Source: Natrialba swarupiae (GTDB lineage: Archaea; Halobacteriota; Halobacteria; Halobacteriales; Natrialbaceae). Taken from it: DNA of 64,000 nucleotides. Both the position numbers and the translations under genes were made by a program. Position 1 is the first letter of the stretch; the number at the start of each line of letters is the position of its first letter. The DNA lies in NCBI RefSeq assembly GCF_008245225.1, contig NZ_VTAW01000009.1, forward strand, positions 62,001 through 126,000, written 5' to 3'. Below the pieces are notes generated by a model. That model ran no database searches, was not told the DNA's origin, and worked only from the letters and a program-made list of their open reading frames with translations. This document shows, piece by piece, positions 26,692 through 37,565 of this stretch.

Positions 26692-26816
26692 GATCCACTC
26701 CCAACTGACGAAACAGTTCGGGGAGAAAATATATCTTGCTGTCAATTTCGAGGGAGCGAACCGCTCGTCGCCCGACGAGGGAAACCCTGATACGGTCACC
26801 GATCCAATCGCTCGCC

Positions 26817-27269
26817 ATGAGCGAATCGTCGTGGACCGACCGGATCGTCGGAGAGCGAATGACGGTCGACCAGGAGTTCTCCTCGCGAATCCAGGGCTCT
26901 GAGTTCTCGAATCAGCAGTGGAGCCTGATCATGACCGCCACCGAGTTCGAGATCGAACACCCCGGCGATCCGGAACGGGCTCAGATCGTCGCCAACACCG
27001 ACAACGTCGATCAGATCATCCCCGAACTCGAGAACGTCGACGCCCGAATGGGCGCGGCTGGAGCCGGCGGCTCCGGATCCGGCTCGTCGAGCGGGCTCAT
27101 CGACTCCATCAAAGGGTCGCTCGGCCTCGGCGGTGGCGGCGACGATCACGCAGACCAACTGGCAGCGGCCGAACGGCTCACCCAGGAGTACGCCGAGGAG
27201 TTACAATCACACCTCGAGGCGAAGGGACGCTGGGACTCCGTCCGGGAGTCGGTCGTCGACCAGGAGTAA
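26817..27269 (+). CDS. DUF5799 family protein
   Basis: 150 residues from MSESSWTDRIVGERMTVDQEF, the typical opening of this haloarchaeal family. The N-terminal 75 residues are a small alpha/beta domain (SLIMTATEFEIEHPGDPERAQIVANT). A glycine/serine linker and a C-terminal helical segment (ADQLAAAERLTQEYAEELQSHLEAKGRWDSV) follow. The function is unknown. The start was chosen because the preceding in-frame stretch is shadow-like. Confidence 0.82.
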   Translation: MSESSWTDRIVGERMTVDQEFSSRIQGSEFSNQQWSLIMTATEFEIEHPGDPERAQIVANTDNVDQIIPELENVDARMGAAGAGGSGSGSSSGLIDSIKGSLGLGGGGDDHADQLAAAERLTQEYAEELQSHLEAKGRWDSVRESVVDQE

Positions 27270-27391: not shown

Positions 27392-27679
27392 ATGTCCGAC
27401 GACGTAGAGACGATGACGTTCTCGATCGAATCCGAAGACGACGCCGACGAAGTCACGGTACCAGCGGGTCTCGTCGACCTCGTCGCCGAAGGCGAACAGA
27501 GCGACGTCGAGACCGTCGGCGACGTCGTCTTGCTCTCGTTTGCGAGTCGCGCTCACCACCTCGTCCACCACGGCCAGGGTGCCGACGAAGAACTCGAGGC
27601 CCAGGAAGAACGCGTGATGGACCTCTTCGAGGAGCGCTTCGGCGTCACGTTCGGCGAAGCGACCGGTCACCAGCACTGA
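27392..27679 (+). CDS. small conserved acidic haloarchaeal protein
   Basis: 95 residues (MSDDVETMTFSIESEDDADEV...ATGHQH). The middle VDLVAEGEQSDVETVGDVVLLSFASRAHHLVHH and ending FEERFGVTFGEATGHQH look like a small haloarchaeal family I recognise without a function (possibly DUF7545). Histidines cluster at both places (HHLVHH, HQH), which might bind metal. The ATG directly follows a short leader with a TATA-like TTTACG near 27363. Confidence 0.75.
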   Translation: MSDDVETMTFSIESEDDADEVTVPAGLVDLVAEGEQSDVETVGDVVLLSFASRAHHLVHHGQGADEELEAQEERVMDLFEERFGVTFGEATGHQH

Positions 27680-27731: not shown

Positions 27732-30700
27732 TTAGCTGGCGACGGAAATCGATCCTTGCGGAGCGCCGTCCCCGCCCGCATCCTCCCCACTACCGGCAGC
27801 GGCGTCGTTTGAATCAGTCCCGTTATCGACAGCGCTGTCGTCCGAATCCGCATCGTCGCCGACAGCGGCATCGCTCGTATCAGTCCCATCGTTCATCTCG
27901 AGATCGTCGCCACTCGCGTCGGGCCCGTTACCGGTGACGGTATCCTGTTCGGATTCGCCACTCGGATCGGGCCCGGTTTCCGGTTGGGTATCCGCGTCAG
28001 CGTCGTTTTCTGCTTCAGGCCCCGGCCCAGTTTCGCCAGCGGTGTCGTCTTCGGTTTCGATTCCATTCGCCGAGTCGTCCGCTGTGGGGTCGGCGTTAGT
28101 TTCGCCGTCACCGGTGGGATCCTCTTCGAACGGCTCGTCGTCAGTCGGCTCGTCACCGGTGGGCTCGTCCGTTTCCGGCGCGTCCGCCGAAACGGTCGTC
28201 GAGAGTTCACTGTCGCCGATCGCGACCGTGTGCGTCGACTCGCCTTCGGGTAGCGTCGACGTGAACGTCACGTCCGTCGACTCACCGCCCTCGAGTTGGA
28301 CGGTCTGATCCGCGATAGTCTGTCCGTCGACGGTGTACGTCGCCGTCTCCGTTCCCCCGAGGTCGCCGTCGTTAGCGATCGTCGCGACGACCTCTACCTC
28401 CTGACCCGCTTCTCCGGTGTCGGGCGCGAACAGATCGGTGACGACGAACTCGGCTGGAGCGTCGATCGTCACGATCGTCTCGGCGGTCTCGTTCTCACTC
28501 GAGACGACAGCCGTGTACTCGCCGGACTCGACGCCCTCCGTCTCGTACTCGAGGTCGATCGTCGTCGTCTCGCCGGGTTCGAGATCGACCGTCGCGGCGT
28601 CGACGACGTCGTCGGCGATCGACAGTTCGATCTCCTGACTGCCGTCCGCGTCGCCGTCGTTTTCGATCGCCGCGACGATCTCGAGTGTCTCACCCACCTC
28701 GACGGGCGAGTTCGTCTCGAGGATCGAAACGGCGAAGAACGGTGCGCCGGGATCGATCTCGCCGGCAGTCTCCGTTTCGGCGATGGGCCACTCGTCCTCG
28801 TCGTAATCGTAGCGGTCCATGCCGGCCCGCCAGACGAGCCGTTCGTCGTCGTCTTCCGGTGTCCACTCGACGGTGAACTCGCCGCCGTCGGCCGAGAGTT
28901 CGTCGATCGGTTCGTCCTCGGTCGTCCCCTCGAGGAACTCGCTGTCGACGAACAGGTCGGCGTCGTTCGGATTCTCGTAGGTGAACGTCACGTCGATCCC
29001 GTCCTCCGTGGGAGCTGTCTCGGCGACGTCGAGATCGGGCACCTCGGGTCGGACCTCCTCGAGACAGTCCGCAGCGTCCGGATTCGGATGGTCGATCTCG
29101 CCGGGAATCGCCGCCGGCGAACTGATCCCGGCGATGGCCGCACCGAACTCACCCGGCGGTACCTCGACCGTCGCCCCCTCGTCCGTTTCGAGGACGTCGA
29201 ACTCCTCGCCGATTTCGAAGACGATCGTTCCCTCGAGAGGTGCCTCGACGTCGTCACCGAGGGTGATCGCGTACTCGCCCATCGTGTTGCCAAAGCCACT
29301 CGACTCGTAGAAACTGGTCGCGACGATGACCGTCTCGCCGTCCTCGAAGGTGCCGGTTATCTCCGCGCGCTGGCAGTCGACGAACTCGACGTCGTACTCG
29401 GGTGGGACGTCCACGACGGAGTACTCGATCGTCTCGCTCTCGAGAACCGGCGCGTCGTCTAGGTCGAGGGTCTCGAGATCCGTCGGCCGATCCTCGGCAG
29501 TCGCGTCGGCAGAGACCGTCTCGAAGGCATCGTTACCGACCGATTCCTGGCCACCTTCGTCGCCGTCGTCCGCCGATCCACCGTTGCCCTCGTCGACATC
29601 CTCCAGCGACACGATCGTCACCTCGACCGTCTCGTCGTCCTCGAGTGGCGGGTCGATCCCGATGCTCTCGTTCTCGACCGTCTCGCCGGCGTCGAACGGG
29701 ACGCTCTCGCCCCGTTGCTCGCCGTCTTCGTCGATGACGACGATGGCGAACCGGACGTCGGCGCTCGCCTCCTCGACGACGACCGACTCGCCATCACCCT
29801 CCTGGTCGCCCACCACCAGAGTCGCCTCGGGATCGTCCGGCGGCGCGTCGACGATCGTGTACTCGATCGACTCGTTCGCCAGCTCGTCGTCGTCCGCGAG
29901 CGCCCGCACGGAAACGTCGACGGTCGTGTTCTCCTCGATCGGCGGTTCGAGGTCGAGTTCGAGCGAGTCGACGGCGTCGCCCGCCTCGAAGGGGTCGCTG
30001 TCGACCCGTTCGCCGTCGTACTCGGCCGTGACGACGTAGTCGACCGACGCGTTCGCCTCGTCGACGACGAGCGTCTCGCCGTCACCCTCCTGGTCGCTCA
30101 CCACCAGAGTCGCCTCGGGCTCCGTCGGCTCTTCTATCGTTACGAACGCCGCGTCGAGCACCGGTCCACCGCCGTCGGCGACGTACGGCTCGTCTTCCTC
30201 GCCGTCGGTCTCGGCGTACTGGAACGTCTCGTCGCCCGTCGTATCGTGGTGGACGACCGCCACCAGCGGTCCGCTCTCGGTCAGCGGATCGTCGAGGGCA
30301 ATTTCGAGATCCTCGTGTTCGCCCGACTCGAGGTACTCGGAAACGCCGATAACACCCTCGGGATCTGCATCGACGTCCATCCCGTCGTAGACCGCCACGA
30401 ATCCACCCTGGGAGAGATCGACGGCGTCGACGACGACTGTCTCGCCGTCCGACTCCTGGTCGGAGAACGTGATCGTCGCCGTTCCCTCGAGTTCGTCGAT
30501 CGCTTCGATCTTCTGGACGACCTCGACCTCGACGAACTGGACGAGTTGGGCTTCGGCGTCGGTATCCTCCGCCACCGCGTAGGCGGTCGCGTCGGCTGCG
30601 GTCTCCTGTGTCAAGACCTGCAGTTGCGTGACACTGATCCGCTGGTACTGGATCGCGCGAGCAGTCTCCTGGGCCGCGCTCTGTGCGCCGATCTGGATCT

Positions 30701-32162
30701 GTGTGATCGTCGCCTCCTGGTGCTGGACGAGCGCGCCGCTCGAGGCGCCGGTGGCGAGGCGTTGAACCTGCGTGACGTCGACGACCTGCTTCTGGAGCAC
30801 CGCTCCCTCGCCGGCCCCGCGGGCGGCCGCCTGGATCTGTTCGACCTCGACGATCTGGTACTGGATCGCCGACTCGACCGCTCCCTTCGAGGCCCCGGTC
30901 GCCGCGTACTGGATCTGGGTGATCGACACCTCCTGGCGCTGGACGAGCGTCCCCTGTGCGGCGCCGTCGGCGGCGGCCTGAATCTGTTCGACGGTCGCCT
31001 CCTGGCTCCCCTCGATCGATCCCTTCGCCGCGCCGAAGGAAGCCTCCTGGATCATCGTAATCGAGATCCGCTGAACCTGCTCGATTCGAACCGACTGGGC
31101 CTGTTTCAGCGCACCTTTTCCGGCCCCGCGTGCGGCGAACTGGGTCTGTTCGACCGTCACCTCCTGTTTCTGGACGAGCGCCCCCTTCGCCGCCCCCGTG
31201 GCCGCCTTCTGGACCTGCTTGATGTCGACCCGCTGGTGCTGTTCGACCTCGAGATCGAGTTCCTGCTCGAGGACCTCCTCGCTTGCCCCCTCGAGTGCGC
31301 CCCCGGCCGCCCCGGCCGCGGCATGTTGGACGTGCTCGAGGGTCACCTGCTGGCGCTGCTCGACGGTGATCCGCTGGTACTGATCGAGAACGCCGTACGC
31401 CGCACCCTGGGCGGCCTCTTGGATCTTCGGTTTCCGGTCGATTTCCTTCTCGCCGGCCTCGCTTGCGGCACCCGCCGCGGCACCGAACGTCGCGACCTGG
31501 ACCTGTTCGACGGTGACGCGCTGTTCCTGAGCGAGCGCGCCGTGGGCACCGCCCCAGGCCGCACTCTGCAACTGGCTCGCCTCGACGGTCTGGTGCTGGG
31601 AGAGCGCACCGCCGGCCGCACCACCGACCGCGGACTGGACCTGCTCCACCTCGACCGCCTGGGCCTGCATCAACGAACCGTGGACCGCGCCCGCGGTCGC
31701 CTGCTGGACCTGTTCGACGTCGGCCTCCTGGTGCTGGGCGACGGCGTCGGTCGCGCCCTCGAGGGCCGCCGTTCGTTGCTCCTGGCTCACCTCGACGCCC
31801 TGTGACTGGGCGAGTTCGATCCCGTCGTCGACGCCCTCGGCGACGGCGTCTTCGTGTTCTTGACTGATCGATAGATCGCTCGCCGGCTCCGGCGTCTCCA
31901 TCGAGAGCGGTCGAACGTCGCCGGTCTGTGAACCGTCTGGTCCAATGCCATCGGCGGGAGCACTCGACGCAGTCGGCTCGTTCCCCGAACTGCCCGCCGC
32001 GGTCGACTCGAGGTCGACGTCTCCAGCCGGCGACGCACCCTCTACCGTGGTGCCCTCCTCGAGAAGACCGCCGAGGCCGCCGCCGAGCAACGGCACGGCG
32101 ACGACGCTCGTCGTCATCAGAACCGTCACCGCGACGACGGCGAGAGCCGAGCGACGCCCCAT
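27732..32162 (-). CDS. giant exported protein: 23-residue repeats, DUF7282-like and CARDB-like domains
   Basis: 1476 residues. The signal peptide (SALAVVAVTVLMTTSVVAVP) is followed by an acidic linker. Residues about 146-550 are some fifteen repeats of about 23 residues, pattern V-x-V-x-Q-V-Q-x-A-A-x-G-A-A-x-G-A-L-x-Q-x-Q. From 558 come DUF7282-like beta domains (ATITFSDQESDGETVVVDAV, ATLVVSDQEGDGETLVVDEA, ATLVVGDQEGDGESVVVEEA) and a domain with two cysteines. Then two CARDB-like immunoglobulin domains (about 1165-1340) and a disordered Asp/Ser/Thr-rich tail complete the chain. There is no PGF-CTERM or membrane anchor, so it may be secreted or held by another protein. The repeat unit predicts strand-turn-strand stacking (beta solenoid). 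It is a single gene with no operon partners. Confidence 0.85.
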   Translation of the reverse strand: MGRRSALAVVAVTVLMTTSVVAVPLLGGGLGGLLEEGTTVEGASPAGDVDLESTAAGSSGNEPTASSAPADGIGPDGSQTGDVRPLSMETPEPASDLSISQEHEDAVAEGVDDGIELAQSQGVEVSQEQRTAALEGATDAVAQHQEADVEQVQQATAGAVHGSLMQAQAVEVEQVQSAVGGAAGGALSQHQTVEASQLQSAAWGGAHGALAQEQRVTVEQVQVATFGAAAGAASEAGEKEIDRKPKIQEAAQGAAYGVLDQYQRITVEQRQQVTLEHVQHAAAGAAGGALEGASEEVLEQELDLEVEQHQRVDIKQVQKAATGAAKGALVQKQEVTVEQTQFAARGAGKGALKQAQSVRIEQVQRISITMIQEASFGAAKGSIEGSQEATVEQIQAAADGAAQGTLVQRQEVSITQIQYAATGASKGAVESAIQYQIVEVEQIQAAARGAGEGAVLQKQVVDVTQVQRLATGASSGALVQHQEATITQIQIGAQSAAQETARAIQYQRISVTQLQVLTQETAADATAYAVAEDTDAEAQLVQFVEVEVVQKIEAIDELEGTATITFSDQESDGETVVVDAVDLSQGGFVAVYDGMDVDADPEGVIGVSEYLESGEHEDLEIALDDPLTESGPLVAVVHHDTTGDETFQYAETDGEEDEPYVADGGGPVLDAAFVTIEEPTEPEATLVVSDQEGDGETLVVDEANASVDYVVTAEYDGERVDSDPFEAGDAVDSLELDLEPPIEENTTVDVSVRALADDDELANESIEYTIVDAPPDDPEATLVVGDQEGDGESVVVEEASADVRFAIVVIDEDGEQRGESVPFDAGETVENESIGIDPPLEDDETVEVTIVSLEDVDEGNGGSADDGDEGGQESVGNDAFETVSADATAEDRPTDLETLDLDDAPVLESETIEYSVVDVPPEYDVEFVDCQRAEITGTFEDGETVIVATSFYESSGFGNTMGEYAITLGDDVEAPLEGTIVFEIGEEFDVLETDEGATVEVPPGEFGAAIAGISSPAAIPGEIDHPNPDAADCLEEVRPEVPDLDVAETAPTEDGIDVTFTYENPNDADLFVDSEFLEGTTEDEPIDELSADGGEFTVEWTPEDDDERLVWRAGMDRYDYDEDEWPIAETETAGEIDPGAPFFAVSILETNSPVEVGETLEIVAAIENDGDADGSQEIELSIADDVVDAATVDLEPGETTTIDLEYETEGVESGEYTAVVSSENETAETIVTIDAPAEFVVTDLFAPDTGEAGQEVEVVATIANDGDLGGTETATYTVDGQTIADQTVQLEGGESTDVTFTSTLPEGESTHTVAIGDSELSTTVSADAPETDEPTGDEPTDDEPFEEDPTGDGETNADPTADDSANGIETEDDTAGETGPGPEAENDADADTQPETGPDPSGESEQDTVTGNGPDASGDDLEMNDGTDTSDAAVGDDADSDDSAVDNGTDSNDAAAGSGEDAGGDGAPQGSISVAS
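30513..31727 (-). repeat. coding tandem repeats (about 15 x 23 residues)
   Basis: Repeat units are readable at residues 170-192, 193-215, 312-334, 335-357, 389-411, 438-460 and 461-483, each of 23 residues. Interruptions with longer units occur around 235-262 and 290-311. Units have diverged at DNA level but keep the V-x-V-x-Q-x-Q and Q-x-Q anchors, so the repeat is old and under protein-level selection. Confidence 0.8.
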
Positions 32163-32568
32163 CTACGCCACCTCCGGGACGCCGGCGAACCCCAGAGGGT
32201 CCGGATGGGCGAAGCGCCACTCTCTCGCTCCGAGATCACGAGTCCAACCGCCCGCACCGGCGGTGTCACCCGGTCGAGTCACTCCCGTCGATCGATTCCC
32301 CCTCGATTCGAACCACACGCTGGCGAAGTACATCCGTCCAACGTGGACGAACCGAATCCGATGATAAACGCCTCGGTCGTTCCAGTTGCTCGCGTGAGAC
32401 AATCGTCCGTTACTCCTCGCCGTCGAGAGCAACCCCCAGTCGTCGACGTCTCGAGTATTCTGGACCACTTCGGTGAACACATCAGTTTAGGCGACCGTCA
32501 CCGGCACCGAGAGGAACCCGCGGTTTCGAACGATTATCGCTCGAGCGGGACGACCACAGACCGTACGT
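32163..32568. other. intergenic region between the giant protein gene and bioY
   Basis: About 400 bp between divergent genes. The left part holds the promoter of the giant exported protein gene; no clear TATA box was assigned. No ORF with haloarchaeal codon use and acidic composition was seen. The right end leads into the biotin operator. Confidence 0.4.
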
Positions 32569-32611: not shown

Positions 32612-33196
32612 ATGGAAACCCACCGAGAGTCGGTCGATCCTGTCGCCGACGACGTGATCAAATCGTTCGCTCGAGCCGCGGTGCTCGCGGCGTTGCTGGG
32701 GGCGACGGCGTTCGTCTCCATTCCGATTCCGTTCTCACCGGTCCCGGTTACGCTTCAGACCCTGTTCGTCTTCCTGGCGGGACTGTACCTGGGGCCCGTC
32801 TGGGGAACCGTTTCGATCCTGCTCTATCTCGCCGCGGGAGCGATCGGTCTCCCCGTCTTCTCCGGGATGACTGGCGGGCTCGGCGTTCTGGTCGGCGAAA
32901 CGGGCGGCTACCTCTGGGCGTACGCGATCGCGGCGGGCGTGGTCGGTCTCATAGTTCATCGGGGGAGGGAGCTCCGCGACCCGGCCGAGGAACCACTCCC
33001 GATTCTCGTCGGGAGTCTGGTCGTCGCCACGTTGCTCATCTACGCGATCGGAACCGGCTACATGGCCTGGCTGCTCGAACTCGAACTCGGAGAAGCCATC
33101 GCCGTGGGCGTCCTCCCGTTCATTCCCGGTGGAGTGTTCAAGCTCGTCGCCGCGATCGCTATCGTCAAGAGCAAACGGATCACACAGATCCGATAG
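32612..33196 (+). CDS. bioY: biotin transporter substrate-specific component BioY
   Basis: 194 residues with six membrane segments. BioY landmarks are present: VSIPIPFSPVPVTLQTLFVFLAGLYLGP, LYLAAGAIGLPVFSG, GGYLWAYAIAAG and the C-terminal FIPGGVFKLVAA region. It binds biotin and works as the S component of an ECF transporter. A GGAGG Shine-Dalgarno lies 2-6 bp before the ATG. It is first in the operon with the ATPase and T component and lies under the BirA-like operator. Confidence 0.95.
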   Translation: METHRESVDPVADDVIKSFARAAVLAALLGATAFVSIPIPFSPVPVTLQTLFVFLAGLYLGPVWGTVSILLYLAAGAIGLPVFSGMTGGLGVLVGETGGYLWAYAIAAGVVGLIVHRGRELRDPAEEPLPILVGSLVVATLLIYAIGTGYMAWLLELELGEAIAVGVLPFIPGGVFKLVAAIAIVKSKRITQIR

Positions 33197-35442: not shown

Positions 35443-36122
35443 TGTACTCCACCGTCGACATCACCCCACATATAGCTCATCGACTGGCGGTGAACACTCG
35501 CCGAATCCGACCGGTTACAGGGACGGAGTACTCGAGACTGACGCGCGGTCGACGGCGAATAAGCCACCCCTATGCCGGCTCTGTGAACGAACCCGCGGAG
35601 AAAGTGGGATCGAGAGGGGGGAACAGATCCCTCGGTGACTGCTTCCCCGGCCGCGGGCGATTCTGGGGGGGAGGGGAATGGCACACGGCTGGGGAACTGC
35701 CTCCAGACGAACCGTCTGGATGGGCATTCGATAGTTCATGGTGATTGCTAATAATGGTTTGGGATAGAGGTTTTCTCTGGAGTTAGTTTGGTCGAGTGAA
35801 CACTGTACGGGATTGGCTGACGGATGAACCGACCATCTGTGACGAACCAGTCTCGTGGTGCCAGAGATCACAGCGCTCCAACAACGTATCGCTCACGGTT
35901 TCGATCCGATCGTCTTTCGTTCGCACCCCAAAACGCTGTCTCCCTCAAAGATCGTTATCACTTAACTCGGCAGGTGAGTCCGAAGTAACCACCATATGAT
36001 CGTGAAGTTAGCTAACAATTATTGCGGCCCTCTGTCCGTGTGGGGGTATGTTGCCGTGTGATACTGAACGTGAGGAGACCAGAGACGACGAGACCACGAG
36101 ACAAAATCCCGATCAATGTGGA
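35443..36122. other. 680-bp intergenic region with a hairpin
   Basis: No convincing ORF. It contains the acetyltransferase promoter, a G-rich tract (35660-35680), a perfect hairpin at 35702-35720 and, near the next gene, a perfect 10-bp palindrome GTTAGCTAAC (36007-36016) followed by an AT-rich box (AATTATTG). GC content is lower on the right half. Confidence 0.45.
35702..35720. repeat. hairpin, 8-bp stem and 3-nt loop
   Basis: TCCAGACG, loop AAC, CGTCTGGA. The stem and loop sizes match the hairpins inserted in tnpA (427-443, 451-469) and dph5 (45080-45098), though sequences differ. Confidence 0.6.
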
Positions 36123-37565
36123 ATGGAGAGCAGAAACGATCGAGTATCTGAATACAGATCACACCTCGGTCGACGATCACTATTACGGACGAGCGCTGCT
36201 GCCCTTGCAGGGATCGTGACGATGTCGGGGACGGCGATGGCTGCTGACGAAGCGGCGGGCGGCGCGAGCGGTCCGATCGTGTGTGTGGGAAGCGGACTTA
36301 GCGTCGACGCGTTCGACGCGGTGACCGGGGAGCACGAGTGGACGTTCCCGACCGAAGGCAGTGCGTGGTCTTCACCAACTGTCGTCGATGGAACCGTCTA
36401 TTTCGGGTGTAACGGAGACGAAGAATCCGACGCGACCCTCTATGCGGTCGACGCAACAACCGGAGACGAAATCTGGCGTTTTACCGATCCCGGTGACTGG
36501 GTATTCTCCTCCCCGACTGTCGTCGACGGGACGGTCTACGTCGGTGAAGGCGGTGGAACTGCGACCGACGACTGGGATTATTCGGTGTTTGCAGTCGACG
36601 CAGAGACAGGGGACGGGATCTGGGAGTTCGAGGGTGTCGACGACCAAGTACAGTCTTCACCGTACGTCTCCGATGGAACCGTGTACGTTGGGTCACACGA
36701 TGGGAGTCTCTACGCGATCGACGACGAAACGGGAGACGAAGAGTGGTCGTTCGACCCCGATAGGGGAAGGATCACCTCCTCACCAACTGTCGTCGATGGC
36801 ACCGTCTACGTCGGTGAGGAGTGGGCAGGGTTGCACGCGGTAGACGCCGACACGGGTGATCCCGAGTGGTCGGTCACCACCGGTATTTCGGGTGTTGCAT
36901 CGTCGCCCACAGTGGTCGACGGTGTGGTCTACTTCGGCGAGGGGAACTCCGGGTTACACTCCGGAAGTCTGCATGCTGTCGACGCAGCCACGGGCGATCT
37001 CGAGTGGTCGTTCACCGAACCGAACGCGCCAGTCACGTCGTCCCCGACGGTAGCCGATGGAATTGTCTACGTCGGCGAAGGATACCACAGCAGAGACGGT
37101 GATCTGTACGCCGTCGACGCGGAGACAGGAGATCTCGAGTGGACGTTTACGAACCCGGAGAGTAACCCGATCTGGTCGTCCCCTACCGTGTACGACGGAA
37201 CTGTCTACGTGAGTCTACAGGGAGCATCTCTGTACGCACTGGACGCTGCAACGGGGGACGATCAGTGGTCTGCGGATGGTCTCGGATACACCGTTCGATC
37301 GTCACCGACAGTGGTAGCCGATCCCGAGAACGGGCACAGCGTCGACTCGAGGGTCAAGTTGGGGACACTCGGCCACCACCACGAACGGGCGGACACGAGC
37401 AACGGTAGTGACGAGTCGACGCTCGCGGACTACGCCAACGACGACGGAGAGGTTGATTCCAGCGGTCTCGGTAACGCCTTCAGCGACTGGCAGTCAGGAG
37501 AGATCAGTTCTCAGGATCTGGGTGAAGCCTTTAGCGCTTGGCAGAGCGGAGATCCTGTCGTATAA
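36123..37565 (+). CDS. exported PQQ-type beta-propeller with dockerin-like C-terminus
   Basis: 480 residues from MESRNDRVSEYRSHLGRRSLLRTSAAALAG, which contains the Tat motif RRSLLR and a signal sequence; a start 25 codons upstream is possible. Seven to eight blades follow the pattern SSPTVVDGTVYVG...LYAVDAETGDLEW, a PQQ-like propeller, although the coenzyme ligands are not evident. The C-terminal 45 residues (ADYANDDGEVDSSGLGNAFSDW and ISSQDLGEAFSAW) are a dockerin-like duplication with Asp-rich loops that may bind calcium. It stands alone. Family members are extracellular and often of unknown role. Confidence 0.85.
   Translation: MESRNDRVSEYRSHLGRRSLLRTSAAALAGIVTMSGTAMAADEAAGGASGPIVCVGSGLSVDAFDAVTGEHEWTFPTEGSAWSSPTVVDGTVYFGCNGDEESDATLYAVDATTGDEIWRFTDPGDWVFSSPTVVDGTVYVGEGGGTATDDWDYSVFAVDAETGDGIWEFEGVDDQVQSSPYVSDGTVYVGSHDGSLYAIDDETGDEEWSFDPDRGRITSSPTVVDGTVYVGEEWAGLHAVDADTGDPEWSVTTGISGVASSPTVVDGVVYFGEGNSGLHSGSLHAVDAATGDLEWSFTEPNAPVTSSPTVADGIVYVGEGYHSRDGDLYAVDAETGDLEWTFTNPESNPIWSSPTVYDGTVYVSLQGASLYALDAATGDDQWSADGLGYTVRSSPTVVADPENGHSVDSRVKLGTLGHHHERADTSNGSDESTLADYANDDGEVDSSGLGNAFSDWQSGEISSQDLGEAFSAWQSGDPVV

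Follow-up and report, generated by a model that had tools for sequence, protein, structure and literature searches.

Whether the 23-residue, glutamine-rich repeat of a large haloarchaeal protein is a curli element or a different kind of structure is the question raised by a gene of Natrialba swarupiae at 27732..32162 (-) in the 64,000-nucleotide stretch of DNA analysed here (the window). An earlier note had read this locus as a giant exported protein with about fifteen curli-like repeats, each made of two glutamine-rich strands separated by small residues, followed by DUF7282-like and CARDB-like domains and no anchor. The ORF of 1476 aa, the repeat number and period, and both domain types were borne out, and export from a haloarchaeal cell is supported by the prediction of a hydrophobic N-terminus; the relationship to curlin and the second strand were not upheld. 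The best explanation, which has roughly an even chance of being right, is a folded rod at the cell surface, built from repeats that each combine strand and helix, closed off by helical caps and presenting the C-terminal domains.

The protein, which has orthologues in the haloarchaeal family of N. swarupiae (hereafter the family), carries a single hydrophobic segment according to hydropathy (residues 7-25, 32088..32144 (-)), either a Sec-like signal peptide or an N-terminal anchor. In most family orthologues a conserved (A)LPLLGGG directly follows this segment, an unusual feature if the signal peptide is cleaved, so an N-terminal anchor is possible. No C-terminal membrane segment was detected in the window protein by hydropathy or in the family orthologues read, and the earlier claim that the protein has no anchor therefore stands for the C-terminus but not for the N-terminus, where residues 7-25 could serve as one. 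Next come an N-terminal helical cap predicted by AlphaFold2 (residues 94-140, 31743..31883 (-)), which takes in most of the first unit (residues 123-146), the repeat array itself (residues 115-526, 30585..31820 (-)), delimited by repeat analysis and a unit profile, and the C-terminal end of the array (residues 527-561, 30480..30584 (-)), which from its sequence alone is possibly a second helical cap.

Behind the array, a Pfam search of the protein matched DUF7282 (PF23951; E 1.5e-36, 125.4 bits versus a curated cut-off of 27), the best of three stretches covering residues 562-675 (30138..30479 (-)), and the Ig-like CARDB domain (PF07705; E 7.9e-12, 45.7 bits versus a curated cut-off of 22.7), the best of two stretches covering residues 1145-1229 (28476..28730 (-)). 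The protein ends in an acidic low-complexity tail (residues 1321-1476, 27735..28202 (-)) with 32% D/E and no K/R. Against this value and the 29% D/E of the domains after the array, the array contains only 11.7%, and such low acidity in a halophile suggests that its faces are packed or associated with something. The C-terminal domains are like those of haloarchaeal DUF7282/CARDB surface proteins, matching both Pfam models above the curated cut-offs; different from those proteins is the N-terminal array, which no Pfam or NCBIfam model covers. A literature search with few subscription papers within reach found neither a paper naming DUF7282 nor a description of the 23-residue repeat. A 712-aa Arg/Gly-rich ORF overlapping the array in another frame (30082-32220 (-)) is most likely a high-GC shadow ORF and no gene.

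The repeats are well above chance. Residues 92-560 contain 29 QxQ motifs compared with 11.5 +/- 2.9 after shuffling (maximum 20 in 2000 shuffles), and the period-23 autocorrelation of 0.247 exceeds 0.166, the highest value that 200 shuffles produced at any of the periods 2 to 79. V-x-V-x-Q-x-Q occurs 16 times with 1.3 expected, and GxxxG 17 times with 3.5 expected. About 15-17 units were recognized, beginning at about residue 115 instead of the previously proposed 146 and ending at about 526, and this is the one copy of the array in the N. swarupiae genome. The profile of 677 distinct units gave the consensus V/A-[TSND]-V/I-[ET]-Q-[IVL]-Q-x-A-A-x-G-A-A-x-G-A-L-x-Q-x-Q-x, with conservation of 93% at Q5, 94% at Q7, 96% at G12, 97% at G16, 96% at Q20 and 100% at Q22. 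Nothing convincing for the repeats was returned by Pfam, NCBIfam or PDB sequence searches.

The basic unit length is 23, with variants of 26 and 31 as well as more irregular units, and the irregular lengths are located at residues 216-311 and 358-388. In the unit profile the length variants fall at two places, namely +2/+3 at the 17/18/19 junction, located after the small-residue segment and often inserting one more small-residue turn, and +8 at position 7. The 31-residue unit at residues 358-388 (30999..31091 (-)) carries such an extra 8-residue V-x-V-x-Q-x-Q-x strand module, which is also present in the orthologue alignment. In addition, an irregular unit at 31377-31499 of the window (residues ~222-262) features GEKEIDRKPKIQEAAQGAAYG, charged residues inserted midway through the array and retained in orthologues as EAGEK...KIQEAAQGAAYG.

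The curli reading rests on a real resemblance. The curlin kernel, N-x-Psi-x-Psi-x-Q-x-G-x-x, occurs twice in about 23 residues with a period of 23 +/- 5 (PMC10192328), the minimal curlin repeat was defined as X6QXGX2NX10, and a 2012 survey reported curli-like repeats at regular spacing in one archaeal protein (PMC3521004). The array shares with curlin (CsgA/CsgB, PF07012) the period of about 23 residues, the alternating hydrophobics between amides, with Q-x-V-x-V-x-Q-x-Q corresponding to N-x-Psi-x-Psi-x-Q-x-G, and the extracellular destination, which is predicted here. The Q-x-V-x-V-x-Q-x-Q stretch, present once per unit, is strand-like in its pattern and resembles one curlin half-kernel. Different from curlin, which has two such strands per repeat, each unit here has one, while the other half is Ala/Gly-rich with GxxxG, the array contains no Asn, and the protein is large and multidomain with a predicted helical cap.

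Curlin family membership was rejected on every test that gave an answer. PF07012 gave no match up to E 10 in a Pfam search of the protein and none up to E 10 in the N. swarupiae genome, one control genome scoring above the cut-off; matches of the curlin profile in other haloarchaea all lay below the cut-off with E above 0.1 and were discarded. Alignment with hhalign against a CsgA/CsgB profile of two sequences resulted in a probability of 0.1% over 12 columns. The minimal curli motif X6QXGX2NX10 occurs 0 times in the array versus 4 in CsgA, and the N-kernel motif 0 times versus 5, with one Q-flanked kernel per unit in the array instead; QX10Q occurs 4 times, under the shuffled mean of 11. No curli genes were found near the array gene in the locus surroundings of the orthologous loci examined. 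Of the curli-like repeat, the period and one strictly alternating Q/V segment survive, while homology failed throughout. Judged on sequence, the array may function to some degree as one half of a curlin, and the curli reading gets half of the pattern right and the family wrong.

A curli-like amyloid could also have arisen outside that family, with strand-turn-strand units forming an in-register beta-solenoid and subunits polymerising to a surface fibre without Csg machinery. The fit of the stretch to one kernel with Q in place of N and G (PMC10192328), the shared period, the scarcity of acidic residues, the low-confidence AlphaFold models of canonical units as mostly strands and turns, and the staining of Haloferax volcanii biofilms by amyloid dyes, albeit without a proven protein (PMC4180959), are all in its favour. 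Nevertheless this reading is rather unlikely, given the motif and profile results above, the xAAxGAAxGAL segment that replaces the second strand, the helical N-terminal cap and the 1476-aa multidomain architecture.

The fold of the unit was considered half by half. Over positions 18 through 7, the entropy alternates with period 2, both in the unit profile (p 0.0009) and in orthologue variation (p 0.002), and such strict alternation argues for a strand of which one face, L-Q-Q-V-V-Q-Q, is fixed. Two short Tat-type relatives of 348 and 342 aa (L064:9597-10640 and L065:9687-10712) contain this strand motif but lack the Ala/Gly half (e.g. QSQSVDVSQSQS), with Gly/Ser- or Lys-rich linkers in between, and from the sequences of these proteins the strand motif looks like an independent module.

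For the other half, xAAxGAAxGAL in place of the second curlin strand is probably a short helix, so that the proposed pair of glutamine-rich strands split by small residues is replaced by a unit of which the small-residue part fills half. The helical assignment draws on the GxxxG spacing, the starts of relatives' units, the length variants at the junction, the N-terminal AlphaFold helices and the residue propensities. In units of relatives, positions 2-7 read DPKKVQ, NPDRIR, DPKQIR or SPERVK with AAxGAAxGAL retained, and helices commonly start with Asp/Ser-Pro and charged residues after it. Segment propensities favour beta at positions 1-7 (1.19 vs 1.09) and alpha at 8-17 (1.07 vs 0.88). The variable positions within 8-19 are 8, 11, 15 and 19, a 3-4 spacing, and the entropy over 8-19 peaks at 100 degrees, marginally in the profile (p 0.06) and unconfirmed in orthologue variation (p 0.14).

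AlphaFold was run twice, with alignments of 4 and 12 rows, and the mean pLDDT of the array was 46.3 in each run. In one of the two runs, AlphaFold2 placed helices at residues 94-120 and 127-140, with mean pLDDT 82-88 over residues ~102-131; helix 127-140 corresponds to positions 5-18 of a unit that retains V-x-V-x-Q-x-Q and Q-x-Q. Canonical units were drawn mostly as long strands, with AAxGAAxG forming the turn, at pLDDT of about 25-50. Foldseek searches with both models found no match at E 0.001, as expected for low-confidence models. Neither a confident helical bundle or coiled coil nor an absence of export, either of which would have contradicted the earlier proposal, was predicted.

Taken together, a mixed strand/helix unit stands at about one half. 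Its counter-evidence is that the low-confidence AlphaFold models would make strands with a turn of the canonical units, and that the helical period is only marginal and unconfirmed by orthologue variation. A related possibility, which appears unlikely, combines both ideas in an amyloid-like solenoid with in-register Gln/Val strands and a glycine-zipper helix wall, which would build fibres or a lattice via its non-acidic faces and would have evolved independently of Csg.

An all-alpha solenoid, quite unlikely on balance, would place a helix of ~17 residues in each unit (positions 3-20) with an S/T/N/D cap at position 2 and glycine zippers, leaving the V-x-V-x-Q-x-Q alternation as coincidence. 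S/T/N/D does occupy position 2 in 91% of units, V1 and V/I/L6 could make a hydrophobic staple, Pro occurs at position 3 in some relatives' units, and the first AlphaFold run modelled a helix at residues 149-167 of a canonical unit with pLDDT of about 60. However, conservation with period 2 extends over 13 positions, and the strand motif of the L064 and L065 proteins stands without the helix segment. The all-helix reading, derived from the capping pattern, was retained merely as a rival because Pro is found at position 3 in 0 of the 677 profile units.

Conservation of the array bears on whether it has a defined fold at all. Matches were found in 103 of 125 family genomes, mostly as a single full-length orthologue with 59-85% identity, and the family essentially has it as a core gene in single copy; it is absent from every sampled genome of two genera, g2 with 6 genomes and g11 with 5. 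A class-wide sample yielded matches in 110 of 391 genomes, 27 of them outside the family, and all 13 matching genomes in a phylum-wide sample of 295 belong to the same order, Halobacteriales. Bacteria were covered by one pattern-based scan, which is weak evidence of absence, and one scan of viral contigs, a phage collection and a plasmid collection gave no array match in the first two and one weak Halobaculum match in the plasmids.

Units at one position share 71% identity between species versus 48% between positions within one protein, and a 26-row family alignment gives no sign that entire units were gained or lost, which together argue for a specific folded rod; the array is among the best-conserved parts of the protein. 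Since its order is fixed and its length nearly fixed in the family, it points to a defined structure instead of an elastic, freely expanding repeat. A secreted element without defined fold, acting as an elastic or disordered spacer or as a protectant against desiccation, would suit the low AlphaFold confidence and the Gln/Ala/Gly-rich, low-complexity composition but is very improbable, as disordered spacers tend to differ in both length and sequence, like the tail of this protein, whereas the array is well conserved and its units are retained position by position.

The surroundings of the gene are likewise conserved, as shown by Pfam and synteny. On one side lies the divergent bioY (32612..33196 (+)) followed by cbiO- and cbiQ-like genes, and on the other a convergent DUF7545 gene (27392..27679 (+)) and a DUF5799 gene (26736..27269 (+)). 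Among 25 family loci with the main orthologue, 23 have the gene flanked by bioY, cbiO and cbiQ in one direction and by DUF7545 in the other, DUF5799 being present too in 21, and the exceptions are L054 and L067. Farther away, a PQQ/BamB-type beta-propeller protein at 36048-37565 (+) ends in ~45 residues (DDGEVDSSGLGNAFSDWQSGEISSQDLGEAFSAWQSG) that look dockerin-like; Pfam at E 0.001 matched no dockerin model there.

The array is also found N-terminal on very different surface proteins (L041:8642-15517, L081:5838-11495 and L069:5619-10631), these relatives bearing TSP3 repeats plus a CAP domain, DUF7282 plus a NosD beta-helix, or a NosD beta-helix. Across relatives, DUF7282, CARDB, TSP3 plus CAP and NosD beta-helix are exchanged as C-terminal partners, and this shuffling behind an N-terminal array marks the array as the constant part and the cargo as the variable part. 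Relatives outside the family with a C-terminal membrane segment (L081, L083, L084 and L086) and several paralogues with Tat-like RR signals (L058-L062, L064 and L065) indicate, by sequence prediction, that the exported proteins carrying the array differ in the kind of export signal they use.

In the proposed mixed strand/helix rod, the protein would be a cell-surface or secreted structural protein exported via its hydrophobic N-terminus, with residues ~94-560 folded outside the cell into a rigid rod in which the 23-residue units are stacked. The strand L-x-Q-x-Q-x-V-x-V-x-Q-x-Q of each unit would stack on its neighbours with buried Gln and Val ladders, and the short Ala/Gly helix xAAxGAAxGA would pack alongside, its GxxxG surfaces allowing unusually close helices that match the strand spacing. 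Strand/helix alternation in 20-30-residue units is known from beta/alpha solenoids of the leucine-rich-repeat type, which offer an analogy only, as the array has no leucine signature and no sequence match to any solved structure. Helical units would cap both rod ends, the N-terminal cap being predicted with good confidence and the C-terminal one putative, and such caps would hinder end-to-end amyloid stacking. On the cell surface the rod would display its C-terminal Ig-like domains, replaced in relatives by TSP3, CAP or NosD-type beta-helix domains, and lateral association through its faces, which are unusually non-acidic, may occur as well.

The repeat, lying outside Pfam and NCBIfam models, thus belongs to a predicted surface protein that is core and position-conserved across a haloarchaeal family, and AlphaFold leaves it unsettled from shallow alignments. 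Its structure would either reveal a repeat fold that is new or define a curli-like element for the haloarchaea.
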